Shown: piece by piece, positions 6,834-49,070 of the stretch | Position numbering within the stretch: position 1 is the first letter of the stretch | Layout: the number at the start of each line of letters is the position of its first letter | From: a virus | Length of the DNA: 49,146 nucleotides | IMG/VR virus record: IMGVR_UViG_3300025131_006800 | Coordinates: 1 to 49,146 of that record | Reading direction: 5' to 3' (one strand) | Notes under the pieces: model-generated | What the model was told of the DNA's origin: nothing | Seen by the model: the letters and a program-made list of their open reading frames with translations, nothing else | The model's database searches: none | Made by a program: the position numbers and the translations under genes

Positions 6834-7200
6834 GGGCTAAGTCCTTTAGGCGCCATATGAGTTGATTCATACCGTTTGCTCTGCTGGGACTGAATATTAA
6901 TCCTAATGCTGACATTGATTGAGTATTAAAGGCTTGTGCTTCGTTTATTGACATGCTATTAAAGATTTCACAAACCATCTTAGCAAGACCGTTGGTCAGT
7001 AATGAATCTGCTCTTGTCTTATATTTACTCTCGTGTATATCGCACCATAGTTTACTTGTACATCCTTTTACAAATGTTTTATCTGTACAAAATTCTTCAG
7101 GTAGATCGCTACCTTTATCAGACCAATCTATTACATATTGATATCTATCAAAATCGTCTAGTGCGTCTATTTCTTCTTTTATTTCGTTAAAAGTTGACAT
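6808..7200 (-). CDS. sufE: SufE-type sulfur acceptor
   Basis: The family signature VKGCTSKLW with the sulfur-accepting cysteine C47 is present, with the early segment DFDRYQYVIDWSDKG and the late segment LGLIFSPSRANGMNQLIWRL matching SufE. SufE takes persulfide sulfur from SufS and hands it to SufB. Length (130 residues) is normal. The gene overlaps the end of sufS by 22 bases and is followed by the small membrane peptide. Confidence 0.93.
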   Translation of the reverse strand: MSTFNEIKEEIDALDDFDRYQYVIDWSDKGSDLPEEFCTDKTFVKGCTSKLWCDIHESKYKTRADSLLTNGLAKMVCEIFNSMSINEAQAFNTQSMSALGLIFSPSRANGMNQLIWRLKDLARERPNNID

Positions 7201-9568: not shown

Positions 9569-10995
9569 TAGCCTATTGAGTTTTCTAGTTGAACGGCCAT
9601 TAATTTATTTGCCTCTGCGGCAAATTCAAGTGGCAAGTTGTTAAATACTTCTTTACAAAAACCATTAACTAAAAATGTACTTGCTTGTTCGGGATCGTAT
9701 CCTCTTGATTGCAAGTAAAATAATTGCTCGTCACTTAGTTTGCTTGTGGTTGCTTCGTGTTCAACAATAGCAGAAGGCTGTTTGCTTTCTATATAAGGTA
9801 ATGTTACTGCTGAACTATCACTATTTAATATTAAACTATCGCATTGAGTAAAATTTCGTGCATTGGTAGCACTTTCGCCTATACGTACAAGTCCCCTGTA
9901 TGCATTAGAACTTTGCCCTGCTGATATACCTTTGCTTATAATAACACTCTTGGTGTTCTTACCAAGATGAATCATTTTTGTTCCTGTATCAGCAACTTGT
10001 TTATTATTGGTAAGTGCTACTGAGAAGAATTCGCCGGTGCTATCATCGCCAGACAAAATACAACTAGGATACTTCCAAGTAATGCTAGAACCAGTCTCAA
10101 CTTGGGTCCAAGATATTTTGCTTCGCTTGCCGGAGCAATGACCTCTCTTTGTAACAAAGTTATAAATGCCACCATTACCTTTTTCATCGCCCGGATACCA
10201 ATTTTGTATTGTGCTATATTTAATTTCTGCATCGTCTAATGCTACTAATTCAACAACCGCGGCATGTAGTTGATTCTCGTCTCGCATAGGTGCCGTACAT
10301 CCTTCTAGGTACGATACGTACGATTGCTTGTCGGCGATAATGAGTGTTCGCTCGAATTGACCTGTATTTCTTTCGTTAATTCTGAAGTAGGTACTAAGCT
10401 CGAGAGGACACCTGACACCAGGTGGTATATACACGAAACTACCGTCGCTAAAAACACAAGCATTAAGGCAGGTCCAGTAATTATCATTAAATGGAACAAC
10501 CGTTCCCAAATATTTTTTAACCAAGTTTGGATACTTTTGTACTGCATCATTAAAACTCCCAAATATTATTCCTAACTTACTTAGTTGTTCTTTATATGTT
10601 GTTGCTACACTAACAGAATCAAATACTGCATCAACTGCCACTCCTGCTAGAGCTTCTCGTTCATGTAACGGAATGCCTAGTCGCTCAAAATCACGAAGTA
10701 TTGCGGGATCAACTTCATCTAAACTTTTAGGACGTTTTTTAGGGCGAGAAAAATAATGTATGTCTTGGAGATCAATCGTAGGTACACTAAAACTAGGCCA
10801 TTGCGGTTGTTGCAATCTTTGCAACAACTTATATGCTTTTAGCCTATATTTTAACAACCAGGCAGGTTCGTTGTTTTTTTGTGAGATAGTTTTAATTATC
10901 TTTTCATTAAGGCCTTTTTCTAAAACCTCGCTTTCAACTTGTGTGACAAATCCTGCTTCATATTTTTTATTGATTATCTCCGTTAATTCTGTCAT
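9568..10995 (-). CDS. sufB: SufB Fe-S scaffold subunit
   Basis: The protein is full length (475 residues) and closely matches SufB. Key segments are [41 protein letters not shown], the C-terminal [10 protein letters not shown] (the essential Cys region) and [20 protein letters not shown] with the catalytic Glu. SufB receives sulfur from SufE and assembles the cluster with SufC and SufD. I place the start at the ATG at 10995, two codons inside a TTG. It leads the run sufB-C-D-S-E. Confidence 0.96.
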
Positions 10996-11029
10996 TAACA
11001 ATGTTCCAAAAGTGTATTCGTGTACGTAC

Positions 11030-15393: not shown

Positions 15394-16323
15394 TTATTCA
15401 AATAAAACGGATATTGATTCGTCGTGATTTACTCTACGAATTGCTTCTGAAAAGATCTCTGCAACAGAGATTATATTGACATGTTTGTTATCGCAAGGTA
15501 TTGTGTCGGTTATGTTCAGTTTCGCTATTGCTCCAGACTGTTTCATCTTGTCTGCACCTTCCTTGCTTAATACTCCGTGTGTTATATATGCTTGCACTTC
15601 TTCGGCGCCGTCTCTTAAGAGGGCCTGTGCCGCCTTGATTAATGTTCCTCCAGTATCTACGATATCGTCGATAATTATACATTGCTTCCCCTTAACGTTA
15701 CCAATGACATTCATTGCTTCGGACTCGTTAGCCCTATCTCGTCTTTTATCGATAATAGCAATATCACAATCTAATGCTTTTGCTAGTGATCTTGCTCGTG
15801 GAACACCTCCTGCATCGGGGGAAACAATAACGCCATTTCCTGCTTTCCCAATCATCGGGCTGTTGTTTAATTTTTTTACAAACAACGGTTTTGCTTTTAA
15901 ATCGTCTACAGGAATATCAAAAAACCCTTGTATTTGTCCTGCATGTAAATCCATTGTTAATACTCGATTAGCACCTGCTGATTCTATCATGTTTGCTACC
16001 AATTTGGCAGTAATCGGTGTTCTTGATCTAGATTTACGATCTTGTCTGCCATACCCATAATAAGGTACTACGGCAGTTATTCTACCTGCACTTGCTCTTT
16101 TACATGCATCTATTAAAATTAATAATTCCATTAAATTATCATTTGCTGGATTGCATGTACTTTGTATTATAAAAACGTCCTCGCCACGAACGTTATCTTT
16201 TACCTCTACCCAAATTTCATTATCAGCAAACCGTGTAACCAATGTTTCAGTTAGCCCACCATTTGCTAATTTAGCAATCGCCTCTGCTAATGGTTTATTT
16301 GAATTTCCTGCTATTAACTTCAT
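15394..16323 (-). CDS. prs: Ribose-phosphate pyrophosphokinase (PRPP synthetase)
   Basis: This is a complete 309-residue enzyme that transfers pyrophosphate from ATP to ribose-5-phosphate. Recognised segments are the start KLIAGNSNKPLAEAIA, VRGEDVFIIQSTCNPANDNL, YYGYGRQDRKSRSRTPITAK, the VSPDAGGVPRAR loop, and the PRPP-binding IIIDDIVDTGGTL. PRPP feeds purine, pyrimidine and NAD synthesis, and some T4-like phages carry prs. The PRTase at 1-532 could use its product. It is coupled to the next upstream gene at the start codon. Confidence 0.97.
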   Translation of the reverse strand: MKLIAGNSNKPLAEAIAKLANGGLTETLVTRFADNEIWVEVKDNVRGEDVFIIQSTCNPANDNLMELLILIDACKRASAGRITAVVPYYGYGRQDRKSRSRTPITAKLVANMIESAGANRVLTMDLHAGQIQGFFDIPVDDLKAKPLFVKKLNNSPMIGKAGNGVIVSPDAGGVPRARSLAKALDCDIAIIDKRRDRANESEAMNVIGNVKGKQCIIIDDIVDTGGTLIKAAQALLRDGAEEVQAYITHGVLSKEGADKMKQSGAIAKLNITDTIPCDNKHVNIISVAEIFSEAIRRVNHDESISVLFE

Positions 16324-16844
16324 TAAAGTGTCTCCGTAAAATATGTTGAGAAGTTGTATTGGTTTTTCTTCTTAAAAAGATAATTCCATAACCATTTGTA
16401 CCAAGGTACCACCCCGGTCTCAAACGTAAATATTTTACCTTTTGGTTTTGAATTGTATATATTAACATCGTCGATATATGCATAACTTTCTGCTTGTTTG
16501 GGATTAAATTTCTTCTCCCATGCAGGACTTATAGCATATATTATATGACCGTCATGTGCTTGTCGAGGAACAACTTGTGGAATGTACTGTACCGCTTCGC
16601 CAAATGCACATGTATAATGTACAAATTCGCTGACTGGATAAACAGTTTCCTCTCCTGGATTACCATACATAAAAACACAAGTTTTTCCTCCAGGATCTCT
16701 TGCTTTACATATATGTAAATCTCCAAATTGTTTTTTTACAACCTCTGAATAATTTGTCGCTTTAAAATGTTTCCTTGCGGTCATAGGTTGTAATTGTGTT
16801 TTATTAATATTTTCTATTATGATTAATAAATCTTCAATCTTCAT
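16323..16844 (-). CDS. Hypothetical protein, 173 aa
   Basis: This is an unrecognised protein, soluble, with a helical start (KIEDLLIIIENINKTQL), a middle rich in Tyr and Val (VYPVSEFVHYTCAFGEAVQY) and a basic, Trp-rich end (WYKWLWNYLFKKKNQYN). It overlaps the 2Fe-2S ferredoxin gene by 11 bases and abuts prs. Confidence 0.65.
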   Translation of the reverse strand: MKIEDLLIIIENINKTQLQPMTARKHFKATNYSEVVKKQFGDLHICKARDPGGKTCVFMYGNPGEETVYPVSEFVHYTCAFGEAVQYIPQVVPRQAHDGHIIYAISPAWEKKFNPKQAESYAYIDDVNIYNSKPKGKIFTFETGVVPWYKWLWNYLFKKKNQYNFSTYFTETL

Positions 16845-25596: not shown

Positions 25597-25935
25597 AAAG
25601 GTTGATTCTGTTTCCAGGTTCAACCTTTAAAACCCACTAAATTATGCGGCTAACGCCATTGCATAATTAGGACTATACTCTGCATTGTTTGCAGTTATTG
25701 TTAATACAGTCTCTCCGATGCATCATTACGCTGTCGAAATCTATTTCGCCCCCATCAGCGAAATACAACATCTAAAATCCATATTAACCCTCCGGAGCCC
25801 AATAAAATTACAAAGGCCCAAAATAGGTTTTGATTGCTCATTGTTGTACCTCTCTGGTGGAGGCGGGCGGTATCGCACCGCCGTCCAAACGTCGTCAACA
25901 AAGTGTCATCGACCGTGTGTATATTTACCTGAATT
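25597..25935 (-). ncRNA. ssrA: Permuted two-piece tmRNA (alphaproteobacterial type)
   Basis: The 3' (acceptor) half comes first. It has a T-arm GGCGG-TGCGATA-CCGCC and ends CGCCTCCACCA at 25855. The coding half starts GGGGGCGAAATAGATTTCGA at 25753. The 5' GGGGGCG pairs with CGCCUCC, leaving the G3-U70 pair used by alanyl-tRNA synthetase. The tag frame, GCA at 25692 to TAA at 25642, reads ANNAEYSPNYAMALAA. Outer ends are approximate; a hairpin (25597-25605 with 25620-25628) may mark the coding end. tmRNA frees stalled ribosomes and marks their products for proteolysis. Confidence 0.92.
25755..25841 (-). CDS. 28-residue membrane peptide encoded inside the tmRNA intervening segment
   Basis: Between the CCA end (25855) and the first G of the coding piece (25753) lies a frame with GAGAGG, 6 bases, then ATG at 25841. 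It encodes a polar start MSNQN, one hydrophobic span (LFWAFVILLGSGGLIWILDV) and VFR, ending in TGA at 25755, one base before the coding piece. It fills the segment normally removed in two-piece tmRNA. The ribosome site and exact fit support it, but at 28 codons chance cannot be excluded. Confidence 0.55.
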   Translation of the reverse strand: MSNQNLFWAFVILLGSGGLIWILDVVFR

Positions 25936-33471: not shown

Positions 33472-33782
33472 TCGAAGGTGTTGGTTGTAACGGTGTCTGT
33501 TACTCTCTCAACTGTATAGCCAGCATCTACAAAATACTTAACTACACGGTCCATTTGATATTTTTTAGATCTATCTTCAACACTACCTTGCCATACGTTA
33601 TAGTAGGATTGTGCCGTTGCACCTGTGGTTGTCATTGTGGTGCCTGTAGCAATAGTCGATTCTAAATTCCCAGCGGCAACATCAGTAATAATTTGTGTTT
33701 CAATGGCTTTTATTTCACCATGTATAGTTGAATCTATTGATGTCTTTTTTCTTGCCTCTGCGGCATTCATATATGCACTCAT
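33453..33782 (-). CDS. Hypothetical, probable virion protein, 109 aa
   Basis: This is a Thr/Ala-rich protein with a helical N-terminus (NAAEARKKTSIDSTIHGEIK) and a DRVVKYFVDAGYTVERVTD segment before a short WKIYW end. The latter segment resembles domains in phage proteins that recur near fibres, but no family is certain. It overlaps neighbours by 4-19 bases. Confidence 0.6.
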   Translation of the reverse strand: MSAYMNAAEARKKTSIDSTIHGEIKAIETQIITDVAAGNLESTIATGTTMTTTGATAQSYYNVWQGSVEDRSKKYQMDRVVKYFVDAGYTVERVTDTVTTNTFDWKIYW

Positions 33783-34099
33783 TTTTTAATCGCCTTTATT
33801 GCTTGTTTTTTTGCTGTCGCTTTCATTTTATCTTTTGATTTTTTTGCTGGACTCATTCCTAGTCCTGGGTCTAATGATATTTCGTGTTCATTAGCATCCG
33901 TAACTAAAGGAATAGAGCCTAATATTTCTATTAAGCTCACATTGTCTATATCAAAATTATCTTTGTGTAAATTGTTTTGAAGTGCTTGTAATGAAATTTT
34001 TGTGATGCCATTTAATTTAGCCATGCCCAAGAGATTAATGATAGTATCTCTTAGTGCTGATTCATAATCTGTGGCTTCTACCAAAGTTGCTAATTTCAT
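33779..34099 (-). CDS. Hypothetical protein with capsid-targeting-like N-terminus, 106 aa
   Basis: The start MKLATLVEATDYES resembles the short N-terminal peptides of T4 internal proteins, which end at a gp21 protease site (L/I-x-E). The body is helical and the end is a Lys-rich tail (KKSKDKMKATAKKQAIKAIKK) that could bind DNA. I infer that it may be packaged inside the capsid. No enzyme motif is seen. Confidence 0.65.
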   Translation of the reverse strand: MKLATLVEATDYESALRDTIINLLGMAKLNGITKISLQALQNNLHKDNFDIDNVSLIEILGSIPLVTDANEHEISLDPGLGMSPAKKSKDKMKATAKKQAIKAIKK

Positions 34100-34113
34100 T
34101 CATTCCTGTCCTA

Positions 34114-34944
34114 CTACTTAACTTGCATTTTTAAATATGCGGCGGCTTTTTTAATTGCATCTACAGGAACTTTGCCATTTTCCATTTTATGTTCATAAAT
34201 GTAACGGCCGGCTTTTTCTAAAGATTCTTTAGGAATACGTCCGGTTGGTTCATCAATAGCACCTGATGCGGCTTCTGCTCCAGCAAAATCATCTTCAGTT
34301 GGAACATCCATACCCGGATCCATTGCTGGATCTGCTGGTGCCATACCGGCATCCATTGCCGGGTCCATTGCCATTTCAGGAGCAGGACCTTCACCCGACA
34401 TTCCTAATACTGCATTGTCCATTCCATCACGAGCAGACTTAACTGCATCTAATGCTGGTTGCAAAATACCTTCTGCTTGTTGGTTGAAACCATTTGCCAT
34501 TTCAATACCGAAACTTTGTTTCATAGCATCAACAATAGGCATTAATTCCTCTACTTGCATTTCTGCAAGATCTTCTGCCATACCTTGCAACTTATCAATC
34601 ATTGCTTTAGCGGCAAGAACAACTTCGGCTTGATCCAAATCTTGTTCCATAAGTGTAGCCAATTTCTGTGGCTTTGCACTTTCTTTGACTTTCTTTTTTG
34701 TTTTACGCATTGTGGGGCTCACTTCTCTTAGCACTTCTTCGTACAAACTAGCCTGCAATACATTTATTGCATATTCGGGAGTTGATTCAGACCCCGGATT
34801 GTTTCTTTTATCTTGTATATGTTCTTTTACTTTTTTTAACTTGCCTGAGGCATTAGTAAAATCTTTTATCTTTTTGCCAGTGAACGATTGCAATGCGGAA
34901 TTGATTGCCGTTGGCTCCGAGACAGTAATATCAAATAACTCCAT
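34114..34944 (-). CDS. Hypothetical virion/core-like protein, 276 aa
   Basis: The protein is helical, with a Met/Pro/Asp-rich low-complexity middle (MAMDPAMDAGMAPADPAMDP) and a C-terminal domain GRIPKESLEKAGRYIYEHKM with VDAIKKAAAYLKM. The start MELFDITVSEP loosely resembles the beginning of T4 Alt. It has a GATAAATA late-promoter octamer 33 bases before the start. A packaged or scaffold role is possible but unproven. Confidence 0.65.
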   Translation of the reverse strand: MELFDITVSEPTAINSALQSFTGKKIKDFTNASGKLKKVKEHIQDKRNNPGSESTPEYAINVLQASLYEEVLREVSPTMRKTKKKVKESAKPQKLATLMEQDLDQAEVVLAAKAMIDKLQGMAEDLAEMQVEELMPIVDAMKQSFGIEMANGFNQQAEGILQPALDAVKSARDGMDNAVLGMSGEGPAPEMAMDPAMDAGMAPADPAMDPGMDVPTEDDFAGAEAASGAIDEPTGRIPKESLEKAGRYIYEHKMENGKVPVDAIKKAAAYLKMQVK

Positions 34945-34976
34945 GGTTAAATCCTGTATTTGTACGATGTTTTAAT

Positions 34977-34984
34977 TATTTATC
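34977..34984 (-). promoter_or_regulatory. Late-promoter-like octamer GATAAATA
   Basis: A variant of the T4 late promoter TATAAATA lies in the intergenic gap, 32 bases upstream of the ATG at 34944 on the minus strand. Confidence 0.5.
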
Positions 34985-34986
34985 AA

Positions 34987-35580
34987 TTATAATGAGTTTA
35001 GTATCTTTCTTTTAATATCAGTAGCCTTCATTTTTACTTCAGTTAATTTGGCTTCATATATACCGTTTGGATTTGTTTTTACTCGTCGGCTTAAATTAGC
35101 ACCTTCGAATAATTTACCACCATACTCGTCGTCTAATTTAGCAACTACATTTGCTTTTGAATGGTTGTTTTCCATTAAATGTTTTACAATAGCAGATGCA
35201 GATGCATATAAACAGACATTTTCGTATAATATGTCTGTTCCTTGCATTATATTATAATACTTTTTCTTAATATTACCTATAGTACCTTGTATTTTTTCTA
35301 TAGAATATCCGTCTATTTGTATGCGATTTTCGGTTACTTGCATTGGTACTTCGGCTTTTACTGTTTCTACTGCATCATGTGTCGCATTTGTAAAATTTTC
35401 AAGTATTCGACGCATTTCAGGATCTTTACCTGCCATTGGTGCAATAGGTGTATCAGTTGATACCGTTGTTTGAGTTGTTGACGGTGTAGTACTTGCAACA
35501 GGTTGTCCACTTGAGGCGGCATTAAACTTGCTTAGTACATCCACCATACCTTTTCGTTCTTCGTCCGTAATTGCTTGCAT
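34987..35580 (-). CDS. Hypothetical protein, 197 aa
   Basis: This is an unrecognised protein with a Thr/Ser/Pro-rich segment near residue 30 (ASTTPSTTQTTVSTDTPIAP) followed by helices and a basic end (KMKATDIKRKILNSL). It is part of a run of unknown virion-like genes. The start at 35580 is an ATG just after the preceding stop. Confidence 0.65.
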   Translation of the reverse strand: MQAITDEERKGMVDVLSKFNAASSGQPVASTTPSTTQTTVSTDTPIAPMAGKDPEMRRILENFTNATHDAVETVKAEVPMQVTENRIQIDGYSIEKIQGTIGNIKKKYYNIMQGTDILYENVCLYASASAIVKHLMENNHSKANVVAKLDDEYGGKLFEGANLSRRVKTNPNGIYEAKLTEVKMKATDIKRKILNSL

Positions 35581-35581
35581 T

Positions 35582-35773
35582 TTATACCTTTATAATTTGT
35601 CCGCCAATGTAATCAATAACTCCACGTGATCGCATTTTTTGCAATAATAACTTTTCACGTTCATCAATATCTTTATTTTCTTTTATGTTTGTATTAACAT
35701 ATTTAAAGAACACTTCGTGTTCTTCATTACTTAGCGGAATTGAAATCGCATTATCTAATTCTATAAGTTTCAT
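35582..35773 (-). CDS. Hypothetical protein, 63 aa
   Basis: This is a small helical protein, MKLIELDNAISIPLSNEEHE at its start and RSRGVIDYIGGQIIKV at its end. It is coupled to the 623-residue gene upstream by a 4-base overlap. It is unrecognised. Confidence 0.6.
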   Translation of the reverse strand: MKLIELDNAISIPLSNEEHEVFFKYVNTNIKENKDIDEREKLLLQKMRSRGVIDYIGGQIIKV

Positions 35774-37641
35774 GCCATGCCCCCTACTCTTTTGGCTCGT
35801 TGCATCATTTGACTTGCTACCATGTCATTAGTAACAAGAAATTCTTCTCCTGTATCAGGATTTGTAACTACTGCATTACGTTTAACTTCACTTCGTTTCA
35901 TTGTTGGAACAGGCTTCCTTGTTGATTGTGATGCTCCGGTTGGTGGTGCTTCTGGATTAGGATTGTTGCCAGCAATTCCGGGTTTTTGTTCGGGTGCAAT
36001 AGGTGCTAATTGTGTTGATTGTGTTTGTTGTGGGCTTTGCGGTTGACTAGGTCCTTTTTCTTTTTGTGCAGGAGTAATATATTCTTCAAGTTTTTGTTCT
36101 CCTAATTTTAATCCATAAAAATTACCAGAATGCATAGCCTGTTTAATGCTTATAATATCTGTAACATCAAGTTGATTCATAAATTTTTCTATTTGTTGTT
36201 CTGATGCATTTAGTTTTAAAACATTTTTAACAAATAAAGATATAATATCTTTATCTACATGATGATGTCCTTCTTCGTGACTGTATTCGGTTATTGATTC
36301 TTTTTTTAATTTGCTTGATTGCTCGCCACGTGTAGCATTGTTAAAAGCAGATTGTATTTTTGATGCCATAGTTGTTCCGTCTTTTTTAGGATTCCCAGAA
36401 GGTTCGTCAAGTGAAAATTTTCTTATTAAATCTTTTCCATAGCCTTTAGCCCATTCTTGAGCATCCCAAGATAATTGTTGTACTACTTGATCGGCAACAC
36501 CGGTTTGCCATTTTTCTTTATTTTTACGTTGAGCTTGGGTCATTTGATCTGTGTCTTTACCAAAAAGATACTGACCGTAATTCCTAGGATCCCATACAGA
36601 CGGACCTTTATTTGTTAGTCCGTCAAACGGATTAATATCAGTAGGTAAGGTATCTTTAAAGTCATCATGTTTATCGGTTATTCCTCTACTCCTTGTTAAA
36701 GGACTACTATGAATACCTATTGATGCTATTGAGGTAACATCCTTTATTGTATCTGCACGACGAACATCGACGAAATATTTTTGACCTTCTTTGCTATATT
36801 TGATTGCTCTTTTTCTTTGCTTGTTAAGACCCGGATTGTTTGTCTTAGTGTTCCAAAAATTAGCACCTCCATTATAACTGCCAAATGCACTTCCTCTTAT
36901 ATACTGGTCTGCTTCTATTTTTGCGTTCTTCTTTTCCCTCGTCATTGGTCCTATATCATAATTTCTCAACGCCTGAAGATGCCCTTGGTACCTTTTCCAT
37001 TCTTTAGTTCCTGGTTTTAAATTTGATTTTACTTGTTGTGTATAGGTTGGATCGCCTGATTTTAATTTTTCTTTCTTACTAATAAAATATAACATTCCAA
37101 TTCTAAATGGATCTATGCCGTCGCCCTTCCAGTTTACATCTTGTACTTCTATATTTGTATATCCTTTTGGTGCAGTTGGATCAACTGATTTTGTGTTTGC
37201 TGGTTCTACAAAATCTGTAACATTAAATTGAGTATCGTAGGCGGCCCATTTACGATTAAATTTCTTATCCTTTAACCATGAATTAACTGAATTTAAGCAG
37301 GTGCTCCGACATCCTATAGGACCATATGCTCGATCTTGCCAAGGACGTTCTTCGTAAGTTGCGTTACCATTTTTGTCATACCCGTTAATTTGAAAATTAT
37401 CTGCAACTTGATCTGGGTTCCATTTACTACCCATTTCCTGATTAATTAATGTAAGTGCCTCGGATCTAAAGTCAGCTCTAGAAGCCGCATCATTTCTAAT
37501 TAATTTTCTAGTAGTAAATTCATTTTCAAGTTGATCAATCCACCCCATAATAATTTTACCAGCCTTTTTTTGAAACTGTTTAGAGACTTTTGCGCCGACT
37601 TTTTTTGCTTTACTATACGTTTTTACTTCTTCAATACGCAT
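35770..37641 (-). CDS. Hypothetical protein, 623 aa
   Basis: This is a large soluble protein with no family I recognise. The first 250 residues are rich in Lys, Trp and Asn (GCRSTCLNSVNSWLKDKKFN). The middle has HGVRR-like basic segments (FVDVRRADTIKDV). A His-rich EEGHHHVDKD lies near residue 460, and a Pro/Gln-rich stretch (QPQSPQQTQSTQ) precedes a short C-terminal domain (NPDTGEEFLVTNDMV). It is probably a virion or packaged protein because of its place among such genes. It abuts the preceding basic protein at one base. Confidence 0.65.
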   Translation of the reverse strand: MRIEEVKTYSKAKKVGAKVSKQFQKKAGKIIMGWIDQLENEFTTRKLIRNDAASRADFRSEALTLINQEMGSKWNPDQVADNFQINGYDKNGNATYEERPWQDRAYGPIGCRSTCLNSVNSWLKDKKFNRKWAAYDTQFNVTDFVEPANTKSVDPTAPKGYTNIEVQDVNWKGDGIDPFRIGMLYFISKKEKLKSGDPTYTQQVKSNLKPGTKEWKRYQGHLQALRNYDIGPMTREKKNAKIEADQYIRGSAFGSYNGGANFWNTKTNNPGLNKQRKRAIKYSKEGQKYFVDVRRADTIKDVTSIASIGIHSSPLTRSRGITDKHDDFKDTLPTDINPFDGLTNKGPSVWDPRNYGQYLFGKDTDQMTQAQRKNKEKWQTGVADQVVQQLSWDAQEWAKGYGKDLIRKFSLDEPSGNPKKDGTTMASKIQSAFNNATRGEQSSKLKKESITEYSHEEGHHHVDKDIISLFVKNVLKLNASEQQIEKFMNQLDVTDIISIKQAMHSGNFYGLKLGEQKLEEYITPAQKEKGPSQPQSPQQTQSTQLAPIAPEQKPGIAGNNPNPEAPPTGASQSTRKPVPTMKRSEVKRNAVVTNPDTGEEFLVTNDMVASQMMQRAKRVGGMA

Positions 37642-37931
37642 TATCGTCTCTTATTCATTGCTTGAATTCGTTTACTAGCGGCATTATATTTTTTAGTTCT
37701 TAGAGCTTTTCTTATCAAACGGGGGCCATATTTTGCCTTAGTTTTTTTAAGTTGTAGTCGTTTTTTTAAATCGATTGGTGCGTTGCATTGACTGGGGGAA
37801 GAAACTGCTCTACCTTTACGCATTCCGTATGTACATCTATATTTTTTTATAACTTGATTTTTTCCTTTACGAGCCCAAACTACTTTGGTTTCGATAAGAA
37901 TATCATCATTTAGGCATTCTTCGAGAAGCAT
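37641..37931 (-). CDS. Very basic small protein, 96 aa
   Basis: The protein is rich in Lys and Arg throughout (VVWARKGKNQVIKKYRCTYG; RIQAMNKRR at the end), with two cysteines (RCTYGMRKGRAVSSPSQC). It likely binds nucleic acid. It has an AATAAATACT sequence 27 bases before the ATG, close to the T4 late promoter TATAAATACT. Similar basic proteins occur in T4-like marine phages. Packaging with the genome is one possibility. Confidence 0.7.
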   Translation of the reverse strand: MLLEECLNDDILIETKVVWARKGKNQVIKKYRCTYGMRKGRAVSSPSQCNAPIDLKKRLQLKKTKAKYGPRLIRKALRTKKYNAASKRIQAMNKRR

Positions 37932-37957
37932 ACAATGAACCTATATTAACTTTTTAG

Positions 37958-37965
37958 TATTTATT
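37958..37965 (-). promoter_or_regulatory. Late-promoter-like octamer AATAAATA
   Basis: AATAAATACTA on the minus strand matches nine of the ten bases of the T4 late consensus TATAAATACT and lies 26 bases before the ATG at 37931. It overlaps the stop of the gene upstream. Confidence 0.55.
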
Positions 37966-38266
37966 ACAACATGTGAGTTAGCCATGCACCTACAATAGAA
38001 ACAACAATACCTACTAATAGGCCCATTAACATTTTATGTTGGGAGGCTTGGTTTTCGTGCATTTTCATCATAATATCGTCTACTTTACGGAAAAGTATAT
38101 CAAATTTATGATCACTGGATTTTGATTCTTCTTCTATACGTTTACTCAAATTGTCTAATTTCTCATTCATTTGTTTGTACCTTTCACCGCATTTATCTAC
38201 GTGAAATTCAAGAGAAGTTTCCTCTCTCAGTGGTTCTATTTTTTTGGGTCTTGCGGCTCTAGGCAT
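37964..38266 (-). CDS. Coiled-coil protein with C-terminal membrane anchor, 100 aa
   Basis: I start at the ATG at 38266 (MPRAARPKKIEPLREETSLE), 11 bases after AAGGA. A long helix with heptads (GERYKQMNEKLDNLSKRIEE; DILFRKVDDIMMKM) leads to one membrane span (LMGLLVGIVVSIVGAWLTHML). The shape is like XhlA-type and similar small phage membrane proteins linked to lysis. The same frame stays open upstream to 38449 across a GC-rich stretch, so a longer form is possible. Confidence 0.65.
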   Translation of the reverse strand: MPRAARPKKIEPLREETSLEFHVDKCGERYKQMNEKLDNLSKRIEEESKSSDHKFDILFRKVDDIMMKMHENQASQHKMLMGLLVGIVVSIVGAWLTHML

Positions 38267-38467
38267 AATAAAACTAATCCTTAAAATAACAATTTGCCGA
38301 GTGGCTTTGAGTAAAGTATTTGTGGTGTTAGCCTTTGTTTGCCTCTGTCGGGGGATACCGTCCCCAGCACCCCCACAGTAGATACCCCCTTCGTTATTAA
38401 CATTTCCCAACAAAAGTTTAGGAAACATAACCTCCAGAGAGGGTTTCATAATATATTTATGAAGTCA
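38267..38467 (-). other. GC-rich leader region
   Basis: This stretch between the terminator and the ATG at 38266 is unusually GC-rich for the window. It contains CATAAATA (late-promoter-like, near 38455) and a GGGGGTATC ... GATACCCCC-like arrangement (GGGGACGGTATCCCCCG) that can fold as a hairpin. It may be a structured leader; the frame through it is open, so coding use cannot be excluded. Confidence 0.4.
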
Positions 38468-38500
38468 TAAAAAAAGGTAGGCGTTATAATACGCCTACCC
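38468..38500 (-). terminator. Strong Rho-independent terminator
   Basis: On the minus strand, GGTAGGCG and CGCCTACC form a perfect 8-base stem around TATTATAA, followed directly by TTTTTTT. It ends the single-gene transcript of 38532-38900. Confidence 0.93.
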
Positions 38501-38531
38501 ATTGTTTCGGAAACAACTTAATTAATTAAAA

Positions 38532-38900
38532 TTAAGCGTGGTATCCTCTAAAGTCTGCTCTGTAAAAAACGTCTGCAGATGAAAGGTTGATTGAATCAAC
38601 TGTTCCTAATGCACGAATTGCTACTTGTAAATTCGCGGCGGTTACGTTGATTGGACCTTGTGATATAACGTGTACGTGTGATGTATCATCAGCAGGTACA
38701 GTTACAACAGCAATAGTCATATAATGCATGAAAGCATGTGCGATTGCAGGCACAGTACTTAAATCACCTGAAGAGTCAATTCCGGTTTTTGCATCAACTG
38801 CGGCTTTGCAGTCAACTGCCCAATAACCTAAATCAGCTCCGACCATTTCTTTAGCGGCGGTTCCACCATGTTGTTTCAATGTAATTGTTCCAGCGGCCAT
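38532..38900 (-). CDS. Probable abundant virion protein, 122 aa
   Basis: The protein is Ala/Thr/Val-rich with predicted strands (AGTITLKQHGGTAAKEMVGA; HVHVISQGPINVTAANLQVA) and a final SSADVFYRADFRGYHA. It has its own late-promoter-like octamer, a good AGGAG ribosome site and a strong terminator, and is cut off from the neighbouring operons. That arrangement suits a highly expressed capsid decoration or tail protein. I do not recognise the family. Confidence 0.7.
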   Translation of the reverse strand: MAAGTITLKQHGGTAAKEMVGADLGYWAVDCKAAVDAKTGIDSSGDLSTVPAIAHAFMHYMTIAVVTVPADDTSHVHVISQGPINVTAANLQVAIRALGTVDSINLSSADVFYRADFRGYHA

Positions 38901-38932
38901 AATATTTCTCCTAATGCTTCTGGTTGTTAAGT

Positions 38933-40381
38933 TTATTTATCAAAAGAATTAAAATATTTTTCTCTAACAGTAGAGAATATATCCATGATTCTTCCGTGTG
39001 TATTAAAATACCCATATAGCAATCTAAATAGTTTATGCTTTTCGTTGCTATGTAATTTATTATATCGTTGTGCTAAACTTAGTGCTTGTGAAACATTGCT
39101 ATTCTGTACACCAAATGTAGATTTTAACTTATAAAGAAACGCAATAGTATCTGAATTTGTCATGTTACCTGTGCTTATTTTAGTTAAATATTTTCGCATA
39201 TACCATGCCGGCAATGCTTTTGATTTAAGTAATTCGCATGTTTTATCATCTAGCATGTGAGTTTTAGTATAAAATGCAGATATAAGAGTATAGGTATCAT
39301 TCATTGAAATTGAAGTTTTATTAAATCCTGGATAAGCACTATAAATTTTTCTTGTATATTTTTTAGCATCTTCGTCGCCTTCTTCACCTAACACATATAA
39401 TAAAATTATACTACATGTTGTTAAATTAACAGCATCAACAGCAGATAATTGTTTGCTCCAACTTCTATTATGAAATGCTTTGCCTTCGGTTAATATATTA
39501 TCACGGAAAAACGTAAATCTTTCCATTGTATTAACCATGTCAATTGTTTCTTGTTTTCGTTCACCTTTAGCCGTGCCTACTTCGCCTGATTTAATAGATA
39601 CCATAGAATTAAACAATCCTTTAACCCTTTCTTTGCTTACAGGGTGTTTTAAAGACAATTTAACGTCATCTAACAGCTCTTCAAACGACTGTCGTAGGTT
39701 AAAATGACTTAATAAATTAACTGTATCAGCCCATTTATTTGATTGCCATAATATTTCTCTTGTACCTTTTACTTCTCTACCGGCTTCATCAGCATCATAT
39801 GCTCGTAAACTTAAATTAACTCCACTTAAATTAAACTCTAATTTCTTATCTGTTTCTGGAACTTGTAAACCGACTCTAGCAAGTAAATCAGGTAATTTTC
39901 GTACATGTTGTGCTTCTTGTATTGCAATCTTAACAAGCCCTAAAACCAGTCCTTGTTTTTCAGCAGTCATATTAAGAAAGTTTTCTTTAAATGAACTTTC
40001 CTCGGGTGTTAATGCTATAATGTTATCAATTTGAACTGTTTTTTCTTGTCCAACTTGTGGGTAATTTACTGTTATAATTTCACCTGAATTGTAACTACGT
40101 CTACCAGTATATTTGTCGCTAGTAAATGGAAGTATCTCAGTATTTGGGCGAGCTTCTAAATATCGTTGTAAATCTTTTTTAATATCTTTCTTATTGTCAG
40201 CATCTAAATGTATAATTAAATCAATGTCACCAAAATCGTCTTTACCTGACGCATTAAAACTTCCACTGATTATAGCATCACGGAAAGGCGGAAAACCTTT
40301 TAAAACGTCATTTACATAACGATCTACTGTAGGCTTAACATATTCTCTATCAATTCTGTGTGATCCTGCTACACCGCTCAT
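38933..40381 (-). CDS. Nucleotidyltransferase-fold protein, 482 aa
   Basis: Near residue 40, DAIISGSFNASGKDDFGDID carries the Pol-beta-type nucleotidyltransferase signature (GS ... D-x-D in DIDLIIHLD), and TVQIDNIIAL could give the third Asp. The N-terminus DREYVKPTVDRYVNDVLKGF matches NRENIQPTLERYFAELKQVF in the gene at 41129-42091, so the two are paralogs. The rest is helical with no known domain. It could modify RNA, protein or nucleotides; the substrate is unknown. Unlike its paralog it lacks a capsid-targeting-like start. Confidence 0.75.
   Translation of the reverse strand: MSGVAGSHRIDREYVKPTVDRYVNDVLKGFPPFRDAIISGSFNASGKDDFGDIDLIIHLDADNKKDIKKDLQRYLEARPNTEILPFTSDKYTGRRSYNSGEIITVNYPQVGQEKTVQIDNIIALTPEESSFKENFLNMTAEKQGLVLGLVKIAIQEAQHVRKLPDLLARVGLQVPETDKKLEFNLSGVNLSLRAYDADEAGREVKGTREILWQSNKWADTVNLLSHFNLRQSFEELLDDVKLSLKHPVSKERVKGLFNSMVSIKSGEVGTAKGERKQETIDMVNTMERFTFFRDNILTEGKAFHNRSWSKQLSAVDAVNLTTCSIILLYVLGEEGDEDAKKYTRKIYSAYPGFNKTSISMNDTYTLISAFYTKTHMLDDKTCELLKSKALPAWYMRKYLTKISTGNMTNSDTIAFLYKLKSTFGVQNSNVSQALSLAQRYNKLHSNEKHKLFRLLYGYFNTHGRIMDIFSTVREKYFNSFDK
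38934..38941 (-). promoter_or_regulatory. Late-promoter-like octamer GATAAATA
   Basis: GATAAATAAAC on the minus strand lies 33 bases before the ATG at 38900 and would drive the single-gene cassette. It overlaps the last codons of the upstream gene. Confidence 0.5.
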
Positions 40382-40590
40382 TAGTATTTCCTTTTCTCTA
40401 AATTACTACCTTTGTTATTTTCATCTACACATTGGTAGTAAGGTAAACTGGCATCTTTATTAAGAGCTCTAGTTCCTCTTTGAGGTCCTGGCCCTTTAAC
40501 CCAATGTCCAAAACACCCTGATGTACTTGTTCCACATCCAACAACTATCCATGTTGCCATCATTACGAAAAGTAATAATAGTCTCTTCAT
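40381..40590 (-). CDS. Small lipoprotein, 69 aa
   Basis: The start KRLLLLFVMMATWIVVGCGT is a lipoprotein signal with the lipobox VVGC, giving a mature protein of about 51 residues with further cysteines (SGCFGHWV; YYQCVDEN). Phage lipoproteins of this size act as outer spanins or superinfection-exclusion factors; neither can be shown here. The ATG at 40590 follows AAAGGTAAAAT. Confidence 0.75.
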   Translation of the reverse strand: MKRLLLLFVMMATWIVVGCGTSTSGCFGHWVKGPGPQRGTRALNKDASLPYYQCVDENNKGSNLEKRKY

Positions 40591-40599
40591 ATTTTACCT

Positions 40600-40785
40600 T
40601 TAAACTGCTTTATTACATTCATACCTAATATTATTTAAACAATTATTACATATGGTATTATTTTCTCGTTTTTCTTTCGTTTTTTCTAATACATGGTCTA
40701 ATGTTTTAAGTATTTTTCTTTTAGTATTTTTTATTTGGCTTAAAAGATAATTTTCAGAAAAGGTTATATATTTGTTTTTATGCAT
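40600..40785 (-). CDS. Small Cys-containing protein, 61 aa
   Basis: The peptide is basic and helical (LLSQIKNTKRKILKTLDHVL), with ICNNCLNNIRYECNKAV at the end (CxxC...C), which could bind a metal. The ATG at 40785 follows AGGAG by 6 bases. It is unrecognised. Confidence 0.65.
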   Translation of the reverse strand: MHKNKYITFSENYLLSQIKNTKRKILKTLDHVLEKTKEKRENNTICNNCLNNIRYECNKAV

Positions 40786-40805
40786 AATTTGCTCCTATTT
40801 TACCT

Positions 40806-41132
40806 TTAATTTGTTGGATACATTTGATCTGTATAATCAACTTTAAATTTCTTTTTCTTAGGTATAAAATCTCTAGCACGTTTTACACCTGCTTGCATTG
40901 CTTTTTGTATCTTTTTTCGTCGTCCAGGTGTTACCCATTTAAATCCTCTATCGGGGTGTTGGGGCGAATTCATTGCGGCAGTATGTAACCAACTACCTTT
41001 GGGTGCGGCAAGTGCTTTATTAAAATAATCTTGGCTATGAAAAAATGCACCACCTTTTAATTCCGGTCGTAAATCACCTCTAACCCATTGCTGAATTCCT
41101 GCACCTTCTGTCATTATCTCACTTGCTTTCAT
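40806..41132 (-). CDS. Basic protein with capsid-targeting-like N-terminus, 108 aa
   Basis: It starts MKASEIMTEGAGIQQW, similar to MKISEIINEAE (42499-42963) and MLVREVILEGG (41129-42091). In T4, internal proteins start with such a peptide and are cut after an (L/I)-x-E site. The body is basic toward the end (GRRKKIQKAMQAGVKRARDF; IPKKKKFKVDY), fitting a DNA-associated internal protein. This is an inference; no family is known to me. Confidence 0.65.
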   Translation of the reverse strand: MKASEIMTEGAGIQQWVRGDLRPELKGGAFFHSQDYFNKALAAPKGSWLHTAAMNSPQHPDRGFKWVTPGRRKKIQKAMQAGVKRARDFIPKKKKFKVDYTDQMYPTN

Positions 41133-42091
41133 GCAGTCTCCGTTTGATACTTTGTTAGGTTACTATTATTTGGTAAAAACTTACCAGATAATCCCAATGC
41201 TTTTTGATTTCTAATCCAATATTTTTGTAAATCATCCGGAATATCTACTCGAGTTTTATCTAATATTTTTAAGTAAATTTGTATAACACTATCATAATCT
41301 GGATGATTTAAAATAGAATCATGTAATGTAAAATAATTATCTAATTCTGCTCGTGATAAACTAATACCAAATAATTCATTGAGTAAGTTTAATGCTTCCT
41401 CTGGTGTTCTTGCAACTACTTCTTTAGTTGCCTTATCTTTAACACCTACTTTATGATTAAATGAAAAATTCTTTGCTTGAAACATTGCTAACATTAATTG
41501 TGTTCTATGCAATCCTTTAATATTAGAATTTTCATCATACTCACTAGAGGAATAACTAAATTCTAACCAAGGTAAATGTCCTACCATCCAATCAATTTGT
41601 ATACCTATATTTAAATTATTACCTTCTTCATCAAATTGCGGAAACATTCCAAAAGCATTACCAGGAGTAACTTTTTTAGGATCCATATGTATAGTAGGTG
41701 CATGTTCATTAACATATTCGCTAATTAAAACTAATGCGGTTTTCATAGCAACTTGTTCGTCGCTTGATGTTCTTGCTCGCTTTTTAAACTGATCAAATCT
41801 TTGAACAAATTCTTCAGGTTTAATATTCCATTGTTGAACTGTTTGAGTAGAAATACCTCGAGGAAATAATTTTGTAGCATCTATTGCTAAATCAATATCA
41901 CCACTGGTACTTCTTTTACCTACCGAACCTGTAGGATGAAAATCGCTAGGATTTATATTTGCTCTAGGAAAAACTTGTTTTAATTCTGCAAAGTATCGTT
42001 CTAAGGTAGGCTGAATATTTTCTCGATTAATGCGGTCGGTATTACCTCCAAAGACGTTACCGCCTTCTAATATAACCTCCCTGACTAGCAT
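41129..42091 (-). CDS. Nucleotidyltransferase-fold protein with capsid-targeting-like N-terminus, 320 aa
   Basis: The signature HPTGSVGKRSTSGDIDLAID (GS ... D-I-D) and a later IQIDWMVGHL match Pol-beta-type nucleotidyltransferases. Residues 20-45 match the paralog at 38933-40381. The start MLVREVILEGG ends in I-L-E, like T4 gp21 cleavage sites, so the enzyme may be loaded into the head and injected, as T4 Alt is. Its substrate is unknown. It overlaps its neighbours by 1-4 bases. Confidence 0.75.
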   Translation of the reverse strand: MLVREVILEGGNVFGGNTDRINRENIQPTLERYFAELKQVFPRANINPSDFHPTGSVGKRSTSGDIDLAIDATKLFPRGISTQTVQQWNIKPEEFVQRFDQFKKRARTSSDEQVAMKTALVLISEYVNEHAPTIHMDPKKVTPGNAFGMFPQFDEEGNNLNIGIQIDWMVGHLPWLEFSYSSSEYDENSNIKGLHRTQLMLAMFQAKNFSFNHKVGVKDKATKEVVARTPEEALNLLNELFGISLSRAELDNYFTLHDSILNHPDYDSVIQIYLKILDKTRVDIPDDLQKYWIRNQKALGLSGKFLPNNSNLTKYQTETA

Positions 42092-42495
42092 TAAATTTCT
42101 CCGAATTGTTTTTTATATCTATTTTGTTTGGCAAGTTTATTGTATGCATTTACTAATGTTTCCATCTTGTCTTGAAACACCGGGTTGTCGTTATTGTATA
42201 ACAATTTATATGCTCGCCGTACCATAAACGGATCTGCAGGGTCATTAATATCTGCGGTTGCAATGCTTTTAGCAAGTTCCATTAATTGTCTAGCAACATT
42301 ACTTTGCAATGACTTAATATCATATGTTCCACCACTGCCAGGAAAAACGTCGGTGCTAAAAGGATCCTTAGGATCTTCTTTTAATCTATCAATTACATCT
42401 TTCTCAGTAAAAGCCTGTTGGATTCTACGTTTAGGTCGTGGACCTCGCATCACTCTTTTTCTAGTTCCTGCTATTTCAATTTCGGCTATTTTCAT
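42091..42495 (-). CDS. Hypothetical basic protein, 134 aa
   Basis: It begins MKIAEIEIAGTRKRVMRGPR and is basic at the start and end, with a helical middle (SNVARQLMELAKSIATADIN). The start is weaker than neighbouring genes as a capsid-targeting match. It is linked to the nucleotidyltransferase gene at the start codon. Unrecognised. Confidence 0.6.
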   Translation of the reverse strand: MKIAEIEIAGTRKRVMRGPRPKRRIQQAFTEKDVIDRLKEDPKDPFSTDVFPGSGGTYDIKSLQSNVARQLMELAKSIATADINDPADPFMVRRAYKLLYNNDNPVFQDKMETLVNAYNKLAKQNRYKKQFGEI

Positions 42496-42498
42496 GTT

Positions 42499-42963
42499 TT
42501 ATCCCTGTATATCGCTTGCTTTGCCAAAAGTGGTCTTTTTAGATTGATGTGTTACTACCCCTGGTTTTGTTTTTTGTGTTGGGGTTTTGCGAGGATATCT
42601 TGCTCTCCAATCTTCTAAAGAACCTCCTCCGGAAGATATCTGTGCCATCGTTGCAACATCTGTTGGCGACATACCATATTTTTTTCTATGTGGCATCATT
42701 CTTTGAGCCATTTGGTCCATGTTTGGACTTCGACCAGCATAAGGTTGTCCTCCTGCGGCGGACCATTTACGTTGAGCATCATCTCTTGCACTTTGTTCTG
42801 AACTATATTTTCTGCCCCAATGACCTTGCTTATTGTATTGGTACCATTCTTTACCGGTCTTTTTATCTATGCCTTTTCTATAACGAGCAGACTGACCACT
42901 TGAATCACCTCTAGTAGGGGAAGTTATTAGTTCCGCTTCATTTATTATCTCAGATATTTTCAT
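42499..42963 (-). CDS. Basic protein with capsid-targeting-like N-terminus, 154 aa
   Basis: The start MKISEIINEAELITSP has an I-N-E site followed by Ala, the closest match here to T4 internal protein I (MKTYQEFIAEA). The body is basic and Gly/Gln/Arg-rich with WYQYNKQGHWGRKYSS, similar to lambda-type or AP2-like strand patterns only loosely, and ends in Lys/Thr. It is probably a packaged protein. Function is unknown. Confidence 0.65.
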   Translation of the reverse strand: MKISEIINEAELITSPTRGDSSGQSARYRKGIDKKTGKEWYQYNKQGHWGRKYSSEQSARDDAQRKWSAAGGQPYAGRSPNMDQMAQRMMPHRKKYGMSPTDVATMAQISSGGGSLEDWRARYPRKTPTQKTKPGVVTHQSKKTTFGKASDIQG

Positions 42964-43204
42964 TGCTTGGTGCCCTTTTCATTCCTGTTACGAATTTTTT
43001 TGGATCTTGATTTTTAATGCTAATCAACAGCCGTCGGTGTAGATCTAGTGCTACTTCTTTATCATATGTTTCATAAATCATATCAATCAAATTAGTTACA
43101 GTTGATACAATATGCTGTCCACGAGATTCAATAACCATGCCTTTATTCTTAGGAGGTATTACTTCGTTAATCTCTTGTAACAGACTTTTAGTTCTACGTT
43201 GCAT
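42950..43204 (-). CDS. Hypothetical protein, 84 aa
   Basis: The protein is helical (HIVSTVTNLIDMIYETYDKE, then ALDLHRRLLISIKNQDPKKF). I recall similar small proteins in T4-like cyanophages, with no known function. Its ATG at 43204 lies 22 bases downstream of a palindromic TATAAATA promoter shared with the divergent plus-strand gene. Confidence 0.7.
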   Translation of the reverse strand: MQRRTKSLLQEINEVIPPKNKGMVIESRGQHIVSTVTNLIDMIYETYDKEVALDLHRRLLISIKNQDPKKFVTGMKRAPSNENI

Positions 43205-43220
43205 ATTTTTTAGATCCTGT

Positions 43221-43234
43221 TATAAATATTTATA
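43221..43234. promoter_or_regulatory. Palindromic, bidirectional late promoter
   Basis: The 14 bases TATAAATATTTATA are a perfect palindrome, giving the T4 late octamer TATAAATA on both strands. The minus direction leads to 42950-43204 (22 bases to ATG), and the plus direction to 43234-43440, whose ATG would be at or within one base of the transcription start. Confidence 0.7.
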
Positions 43235-43440
43235 TGAAATTGACACATATTATTGAACAACCCGAAGGGCCTCCGCCCATTAATCTTCAAGCAATCGAAG
43301 GCATGATTGATCAAGTTGTCCCCGATCCTGCATATGCTGATGAAATCCGTCAAGCAATCGGTATGTTAGGAAGCGGACGACAATTAACTCGTGAACACAA
43401 CCAAGTAATATTGACATATCTTACAATGATATCTGGTTAA
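43234..43440 (+). CDS. Small protein with capsid-targeting-like N-terminus, 68 aa
   Basis: It starts MKLTHIIEQPEGPPPINLQA, with I-I-E as a possible gp21-type site, followed by a helical domain (IEGMIDQVVPDPAYADEIRQ). It is the only plus-strand gene of this region, and its stop overlaps the stop of the helicase gene in TTAA. The ATG is 5 bases after TATAAATA, so a leaderless mRNA is likely. Unrecognised. Confidence 0.7.
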   Translation: MKLTHIIEQPEGPPPINLQAIEGMIDQVVPDPAYADEIRQAIGMLGSGRQLTREHNQVILTYLTMISG

Positions 43441-44801
43441 TGTATCTTTTTAATTAACGATTTTAATCTATCTGTTTGGTCAACTGTTACTGCTTCTTTT
43501 GGTTCAGTATCACGCATTGTTGACGTCTTTTTTAGTTTTTCGTACAGATTTTCTTGCGGTGTTTCTTCCATATCATCTGCTAAATCTTGTATTCTTAGTG
43601 TATTAATATCAAAATCTAATTCTACTTTTTGTCCTACACCACTACTGGATCTAGTTTTCATAAATTGTATTTGCACTCTACCACGTTCTCGCATTATTCT
43701 ACTAGTAAAAATTGCAATAACATTATCTGCTGTTTGTATTTTACTAATACCACCTGCAATATGACTGTGATCAAACTCTATTTCATCTACTGCACCTCTG
43801 TTTAATTGTGATGCTGTGGCAAACAAATAATTTCCTTCTACTGCAAAGTTCCTAAGTTCTTCACTAACAAACTTATCTTTAATAAACAAATCACTTGGTG
43901 GTACTTTCCGTTGTGCTGGCATCATTAAATCTAGATAATCTACTAGTATGCATTGTGGTTCTATACCTGTTTGTGTTATGTACTCTTTAATGTATACTTT
44001 AATATCATTAACTGTACAACCATTTGGTAATTGTATAATTTGTAAATTACCTTTTTTCTTTCCGTGCATTTTAACTTTTAATTCAACATCGTCAATATTT
44101 TTAAATATTTCTCTTGTTGAATATCCTGTTATCATGCTGTCTAGTCGCATTGCAGTTAATCCTTCACTAAGTTCTAAACTCAAGTATATTACATTAAATC
44201 CTGCTTCGACCCAGTTAAGTGCTAAGTTTTGTAAGAATAAACTTTTACCTGCACCAGATCCTCCTGCAAATATACTAAGTTCTCCTCTATTAAATCCACC
44301 ATACAATTTGTCATCTATTGTTTTCCATCCTGTACTTGTACTACCATTTTTATCTCTTAACTCTGTTAACCGAGCAAGTGGATCTTGCCAATAATCTGTT
44401 CCTAGGTTTTTTGTTAAACCAATACTAACTGCTTCTTTAATTATACCTTCTACTGTACCATATTCTTGTGTTTCTAATAAATCTGCAGATTCTATAATTG
44501 CTTTTTCTAATGCCTTATGTTTACAAAATTGTTCAAACTCTCCTAAGAACCAATCTGTTTCATGTTTTGTAACTGGTACTTTTTCAAACTTTCCTTTTGT
44601 CTTTGCATTTAATATTTCAAACCCAGGCATAGCAGAATGTTCATCTGAATATTCTTGTATAAATTCTACACTTTCTCTAAGTGTGGCATCAAAGTATTCA
44701 GGTTGAACAATATTACTACATCTTGCATAAAGTTCTGGTTCTGTTACCAAAAATTCTATAAACATTTTTTGTAATTCGTATGTATAATCTACTTCAGCCA
44801 T
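43437..44801 (-). CDS. Replicative DNA helicase, T4 gp41/DnaB type
   Basis: The RecA-like core has Walker A FAGGSGAGKSLFLQNLALNW (residues 180-187), VIYLSLELSEGLTAMRLDSM, Walker B CILVDYLDLMMPAQR and an FATASQLNRGAVDE segment with the conserved Gln, plus FMKTRSSSGVG near the end. The N-terminal 140 residues are helical as in DnaB. It unwinds DNA ahead of the fork as a hexamer with the primase. It overlaps the primase gene by 13 bases. Confidence 0.93.
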   Translation of the reverse strand: MAEVDYTYELQKMFIEFLVTEPELYARCSNIVQPEYFDATLRESVEFIQEYSDEHSAMPGFEILNAKTKGKFEKVPVTKHETDWFLGEFEQFCKHKALEKAIIESADLLETQEYGTVEGIIKEAVSIGLTKNLGTDYWQDPLARLTELRDKNGSTSTGWKTIDDKLYGGFNRGELSIFAGGSGAGKSLFLQNLALNWVEAGFNVIYLSLELSEGLTAMRLDSMITGYSTREIFKNIDDVELKVKMHGKKKGNLQIIQLPNGCTVNDIKVYIKEYITQTGIEPQCILVDYLDLMMPAQRKVPPSDLFIKDKFVSEELRNFAVEGNYLFATASQLNRGAVDEIEFDHSHIAGGISKIQTADNVIAIFTSRIMRERGRVQIQFMKTRSSSGVGQKVELDFDINTLRIQDLADDMEETPQENLYEKLKKTSTMRDTEPKEAVTVDQTDRLKSLIKKIH

Positions 44802-48576: not shown

Positions 48577-48671
48577 AATAAATATATATTACACTATTTA
48601 GGTTGTTTTCGCAACCTTTATTATGGGGCACCATCCCCGTAGTGGATAGAACCCACTTTAGGAGAAAACAA
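48577..48671 (+). promoter_or_regulatory. Late promoter and structured leader
   Basis: AATAAATA (48577-48584, plus strand) resembles the late octamer. The leader then has an AGGTTG...CAACCT hairpin near 48599-48618 and a GGGG CACCAT CCCC hairpin, before AGGAG at 48660-48664. Paired 5' ends like this can protect abundant phage mRNAs. Confidence 0.5.
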
Positions 48672-49070
48672 ATGGGAAGACCAATTAGTAAAAGACATAT
48701 CGGTACACCCGATGCTGGCAACGAATTAAAATGTCGGTATCATACCGGAGCCGCAGAAGTAAACGGCTGGATTGTTGCACAAAAAGGTACCAAGCGATAT
48801 AAATGCTACGATGGTTCCACTTATGCAACATGCTCATTAGTTGATAAAGCACAAGGTACATTAGCCGCTGGCGAAATGACTGTTACTGTTAAAGACGATG
48901 GCGGAACAGTTCGCCAGGTCACAAAAATTACAGGACATAGAGTTATGCTTGATTCAGGCACATCTCAGCCTTGGACATTTACAACAGATGCCGCTGATGA
49001 CAAAGTGGAAATTGAAGAAGCAGGTACGGACGATTCCTTTACCGGCGCAGACGATTTCGAAGCAGACTGA
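48672..49070 (+). CDS. Probable virion protein, 132 aa
   Basis: The start is the ATG at 48672, seven bases after AGGAG. The protein begins MGRPISKRHIGTPDAGNELK and is otherwise beta-rich with two halves (RYHTGAAEVNGWIVAQKGTK; GHRVMLDSGTSQPWTFTTDA) and an acidic end. With its own late promoter, structured leader and terminator it looks like a highly expressed structural gene. I do not recognise its family. Confidence 0.7.
   Translation: MGRPISKRHIGTPDAGNELKCRYHTGAAEVNGWIVAQKGTKRYKCYDGSTYATCSLVDKAQGTLAAGEMTVTVKDDGGTVRQVTKITGHRVMLDSGTSQPWTFTTDAADDKVEIEEAGTDDSFTGADDFEAD

Follow-up and report, generated by a model that had tools for sequence, protein, structure and literature searches.

The window, the whole 49,146-nucleotide stretch of IMG/VR record IMGVR_UViG_3300025131_006800, is a fragment of a marine jumbo myophage genome. 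Its helicase and structural genes relate it to PA5oct, Atu_ph07, Sinorhizobium phage Phosso and Vibrio phage 2.275.O. A DnaB-like helicase gene serves as the landmark at the edge of a gene block at 33.4-43.4 kb (Table 1), whose counterpart in PA5oct runs from helicase gp260 to exonuclease gp244. From its sequence, this block is best read as encoding head proteins and packaged proteins of the phage. Elsewhere the window carries a permuted tmRNA (25642-25911, minus strand; RF04321, 78 bits; ARAGORN-predicted tag ANNAEYSPNYAMALAA), a SUF iron-sulphur assembly cassette (5375-11001, minus strand) comprising SufS, a SufD-like protein, SufC, SufB and FeS_assembly_P, two radical SAM proteins (529-1779 and 5695-6732, minus strand) and a freshwater-2 RNA motif (48600-48674, plus strand; RF02980, 58 bits).

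N-terminal leaders in the window

The first-pass annotation had drawn attention to five proteins of the block, here named by their first coordinate (42499, 40806, 41129, 33779 and 43234), said to share the N-terminus M-(K/L)-x-x-x-(I/L)-(I/V)-x-E. All five genes and their starts were found exactly as read. The literal pattern is exact in MKISEIINE, but the other four leaders deviate from it, either requiring V or M to be allowed at one position or being one residue shorter. A common register is regained when the leaders are aligned on [LIM]-x-E (MKISEII-NE/A, MKASEIM-TE/G, MLVREVI-LE/G, MKLATL-VE/A and MKLTHI-IE/Q, the slash marking the predicted cut). The bodies were correctly described as otherwise unrelated, with 40806 and 42499 aligning only over residues 1-20. 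The description of these proteins as mostly basic is weaker: it fits three of the five (pI 10.2, 10.1 and 8.9) but neither 41129 (pI 5.9) nor 43234 (pI 4.8).

Table 1. Genes of the 33.4-43.4 kb block and its flanking helicase, with predicted leaders and cut sites (slash)
Feature	Position	Strand	Leader or site	Codons of leader or site glutamate	Remarks
106-aa protein	33779-34099	-	MKLATLVE/A(TD)	34076-34099	PHROG 15050, head and packaging
Virion structural protein	34114-34944	-	internal candidate site KLATLME/QDLDQAE	34645-34647 (E100)	
96-aa strongly basic protein	37641-37931	-	MLLEECLNDDILIE/T(KVVWARKG)	37890-37931	
Nucleotidyltransferase fused to C-terminal domain	38933-40381	-	junction NILTE/GKAF	39485-39487 (E299)	
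108-aa basic protein	40806-41132	-	MKASEIMTE/G(AG)	41106-41132	
Pol-beta-type nucleotidyltransferase (predicted)	41129-42091	-	MLVREVILE/GG(N)	42065-42091	
134-aa protein	42091-42495	-	Arg-rich N-terminus MKIAEIEIAGTRKRVMRGPRPKRR		resembles long Arg-rich leaders of relatives
154-aa basic protein	42499-42963	-	MKISEIINE/A(EL)	42937-42963	
84-aa virion structural protein	42950-43204	-	no leader		PHROG 11854
68-aa acidic protein	43234-43440	+ (opposite strand)	MKLTHIIE/Q(PE)	43234-43257	
DnaB-like helicase	43437-44801	-			53% identity to PA5oct gp260

A loosened regular expression, fitted to the five leaders themselves, matches 5 of the 18 genes in the block and 1 of the 60 window genes outside it (Fisher P = 0.002, block versus rest); shuffling residues 2-25 5000 times predicts 0.06 matches for the block. 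Because of this fitting, the independent tests, namely the counts in related contigs described below and a position weight matrix (PWM), carry more weight. The PWM was built exclusively from other phages and families; when it was used to rank the 78 window genes, 40806, 42499 and 43234 took the top three places, 33779 came 7th and 41129 13th. Two apparent carriers were rejected. The Fe-S assembly protein at 5375, the sole match of the regular expression outside the block, has an ordinary-looking N-terminus and is a clear false positive; 35582 matches parts of the pattern, and its N-terminus likewise looks ordinary. Also outside the block, the gene at 16323-16844 (minus strand) has a start, MKIEDLLIIIE/N, that resembles a leader and also scores.

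Three genes with candidate sites had been overlooked: 37641, with a leader of its own; 38933, with a junction between its two domains; and 34114, with an internal site. The last matches a virion structural protein family (PHROG 14154, E = 1e-25), and its candidate site is kept in Phosso, Atu_ph07 and the Vibrio phage. The protein encoded at 42091 is only a possible member of the set, because no conserved glutamate junction was found in it. At least six proteins of the block carry an N-terminal leader, typically with M-[KR]-x-x-[DEQ]-[ILVF] at its start and [LIV]-x-E at its end. Leader length is 8-14 residues in the window and reaches about 50 in relatives.

Leader-body junctions in related phages

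The strongest evidence is the junction itself: whatever the length of the leader, orthologous bodies follow [LIV]xE from the same residue onward. Among orthologues of the nucleotidyltransferase 41129, leaders of 9 to 52 residues end in junctions such as VILE/GGNV, AICE/GGNV, PIKE/GGNI and KLRE/GGKM. With only the GG of the body as anchor, P1 is glutamate in 26 of 26 sequences, and E9 is nearly invariant among 25 homologues. In Atu_ph07, Phosso and Flavobacterium phage immuto the leader is missing, and the orthologues start MGGRAF, MGGAAF and MGGNVF. The family of 37641, also anchored on the body only, has [LIV]xE/[TSA] before the conserved body in all 28 relatives.

Anchor-based counts for the DUF6267 proteins, the C-terminal domain of 38933 and one further family (family 14) required or sought the glutamate, and alignments were used for the first two. 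In these alignments E9 is invariant in 17 DUF6267 proteins, and the glutamate column is filled in 34 of 34 relatives of the 38933 C-terminal domain, which relatives encode as a separate gene whose leader ends in [LI]xE/[SA]. Some DUF6267 proteins start MRANQFLTE/ATQKGREY, and in others a long Arg-rich leader runs up to LRE/SVGREY; cyanophage members have no leader, and that of phage Melnitz starts MINFSKYITE/D. Family 14 provides examples only, in which short or Cys-rich leaders precede a body that follows a glutamate. Across families, the (L/I)-x-E motif that the first-pass annotation had taken from T4 recurs at the junction, with an aliphatic P3 (in a few cases M or V) and glutamate at P1. 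The same kind of body can carry different leaders, or begin with Met just before the same residue.

Individual window genes have relatives of several kinds. The 40806 orthologue in contig L061 carries MKINEVILE/GAILE/GAGIQ ahead of the same body. The leader of 43234 is identical in contigs L004 and L005, while the stretch behind it varies; genes at this position in other contigs start MKALDLNE/A and MRAFDLDE/A. For 42499, phage records held no homologue, and it recurs only in the near-identical contig L001.

Two leader variants were also observed. One starts MKIMDI and has many cysteines ahead of its glutamate junction (L046:6719, L049:9079, L064:7803, L053:16094) and possibly binds metal. The other is the long Arg-rich form (MKIKDILGGTKKRKRRGSR..) on nucleotidyltransferases and DUF6267 proteins (L009:8731, L014:6603, L049:3484 and others).

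The signal extends across the clade. The helicase was used to collect 80 related contigs, in which ^M[KRL]xx[DEQ][ILVFM].{0,5}E matches 56 of the 533 distinct ORFs lying downstream of it, with 2.2 +- 1.5 expected from shuffling, and none of the 515 upstream.

Virion proteins and prohead protease of relatives

From gp259 to gp245 of PA5oct, 11 of 15 genes are annotated as detected by ESI-MS/MS (P = 1.3e-5 versus the rest of the genome), and 29 virion proteins of Atu_ph07 identified by MS derive from CDS 31-76, the same block, according to the published account (PMC6102473). Published MS annotation places this cargo in the virion for the relatives only, and detection by MS does not distinguish a packaged protein from a surface protein or a contaminant. 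The PA5oct counterpart of 33779, gp246, is among the detected proteins and starts MKIKDILVE/S. Predicted mature N-termini in PA5oct are SDEYVDR.. for gp246, GYYNPAD.. for gp333 and NASAGAT.. for the capsid protein. Over the PA5oct proteome, the N-terminal pattern occurs in 6 of 93 MS-detected versus 1 of 159 undetected proteins (P = 0.011), a moderate test of a pattern that had already been seen in homologues. Taken alone, literal T4 (L/I)xE expressions failed to set the MS-detected PA5oct proteins apart from the others (P = 0.25-0.42); the separation comes only with the clade pattern, including its fifth and sixth residues. The block also includes virion proteins with no leader, namely PA5oct gp253 (a nucleotidyltransferase) and gp252, and in the window 38933 has none at its own N-terminus. 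Proteins such as gp253 indicate that the leader is not the sole route into the virion. The ligase-like PA5oct gp256 was not detected by virion MS.

A gp21-type protease, as the proposed processing would need, is present in the relatives: Pfam S77 was found in all four complete genomes but not in the window record, as expected of a fragment. Matches above the cut-off came from PA5oct (gp331), Phosso, Atu_ph07, Vibrio phage 2.275.O and one 115-kb environmental contig, with H, S and D conserved. The first-pass annotation had proposed looking for the same cut pattern in scaffold and capsid genes; in these relatives it is present in capsid, protease and core genes. Candidate cut sites precede the conserved region of the major capsid protein (LVE/NAS, IME/NAS, LME/SAT), the S77 protease carries an invariant E7, and a small gp67-like core gene, located between those for portal and protease, starts MKINDIITE/G, MKLTELFNPLTE/S or MKLVELFE/A. 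The same site on leaders, capsid and core proteins argues for one common cut rule, as in T4.

Function of the leader-bearing proteins

Some of the bodies look like enzymes. In the structure model of 41129, residues 1-13 are disordered and the body is folded. Its family has invariant G55, S56, S63, G64, D65 and D67 (GS..G[DE]xD motif), and a fold search of the PDB returned DNA polymerases beta and lambda as top matches (best E 2.5e-3, probability about 1, TM about 0.36). By motif and predicted fold, 41129 is a remote member of the Pol-beta nucleotidyltransferase superfamily. The DUF6267 proteins share an invariant KWDG motif, and their fold matches, mostly nucleic acid ligases, fall below significance (best E 0.07). 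Profile searches of both families against PDB sequences gave no matches.

Atu_ph07 gp053-gp063 (L083:11485-22593) form a tandem array of ~11 genes, most with near-identical leaders, M[KR]Wx[DEQ]LxE; starts include MRWEQLTE, MKWHQLTE and MRWHQLNE. When nine of these proteins were aligned with one contig protein, the bodies were 20-40% identical, and M1, Q5, L6 and E8 were invariant. Most bodies in the array contain YRG together with conserved S and E residues, which recalls the R-S-E ADP-ribosyltransferases, a motif reading with no profile hit. Atu_ph07 gp053 additionally contains a Zeta-toxin-type P-loop kinase domain.

The arrangement resembles that of the T4 internal proteins and Alt in several respects: a short N-terminal leader on unrelated cargo, a glutamate-ending cut site (in Alt the cuts fall at ITE-6 and LTE-619; PMC5694885) and, in the relatives, an S77-family protease and a similar capsid site. 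The proposed likeness to the leader of T4 internal protein I holds for the kind of leader and cut site, but the leader sequence is distinct. Unlike T4, the clade uses M[KR]xx[DEQ][IL]..E (MKWHQLTE in Atu_ph07), has long Arg-rich and Cys-rich leaders, and has a gene fusion split by an internal site. In Pfam and PHROGs, the leader-bearing window cargo had no homology to T4 IPI-III or Alt. The ejection proteins of phiKZ and SPN3US are comparable in coming from jumbo phages with a glutamate-specific prohead protease and processed inner head proteins (PMC5694885), but SPN3US propeptides are mostly long (over 100 residues), the protease is of family S80 and the phages are of another lineage. The virion protein clusters of PA5oct, RaK2 and Atu_ph07 share the gene block and have homologous virion proteins. 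The portions consulted of the corresponding papers and records list virion proteins, and neither a leader nor a rule for cutting was found in them; the open-access literature searched reports capsid-targeting leaders in T4 and propeptides in phages of the SPN3US type, and none in the PA5oct/Atu_ph07 clade.

We consider it likely (probability about 0.8) that these N-termini are T4-like capsid-targeting leaders removed by a prohead protease, with a distinct sequence of their own and modular long forms. The comparative data support the targeting and cleavage parts of the original proposal (the junctions, leader swapping and loss, the S77 protease of relatives and the virion synteny with PA5oct), but its injection part is weaker. 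The leader would dock the protein into the prohead core, a gp21-type protease would cut after the glutamate during head maturation, and the mature body would stay inside the head; from there, the enzyme-like cargo at least would probably enter the host with the DNA. For the window proteins we infer packaging and cutting, and injection of the enzyme-like members is plausible by analogy with T4 Alt.

Could the leaders be real and cut, yet belong to resident head or core parts, such as scaffold remnants, internal structure or DNA-condensing proteins, that are never ejected? The structural PHROG matches of 33779, 34114 and 42950 fit such a role, as does the occurrence of the same signal in the capsid protein and in the core gene resembling gp67. 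We nonetheless regard this as unlikely, since the enzyme-like leader-bearing bodies in relatives (the Pol-beta nucleotidyltransferase, DUF6267 with its KWDG and the ADP-ribosyltransferase-like arrays of Atu_ph07) would make poor building blocks and recall the logic of T4 Alt.

Short amphipathic N-termini can also act in localisation or stability unrelated to the head, for example at membranes or in proteolysis, and ClpS-like proteins, seen by eye, are encoded in the window. The presence of the signal on genes for virion proteins and for the prohead core, the conserved junction glutamate and the co-occurrence of S77 make such a role very improbable. Resemblance by chance, or through a bias toward MK-rich translation starts, is disfavoured and less credible still: the literal pattern is a loose one, derived by fitting five sequences, and there is a false positive at 5375, but the absence of matches upstream of the helicase in the same contigs and the conservation of junctions across families and leader lengths run against it.

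Under the capsid-targeting reading, a broader proposal, for which we see roughly even odds, is that the clade loads a varied enzyme kit into the head for delivery at infection by means of an exchangeable, cleavable address tag. The kit would comprise RNA-repair-like nucleotidyltransferases, a ligase-like DUF6267 enzyme and tandem arrays of ADP-ribosyltransferase-like effectors, and the extended Arg- or Cys-rich leaders would make up a second type of tag for packaging. Jumbo phages have dozens of unexplained virion proteins, and a sequence rule for head cargo that also gives the exact mature N-terminus would predict packaged, possibly injected, proteins, also in uncultured phages. The rule is open to test in PA5oct and Atu_ph07, since MS analyses of the virions of both exist. 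It also suggests that counter-defence enzymes may arrive in the host ready-made instead of being expressed there.
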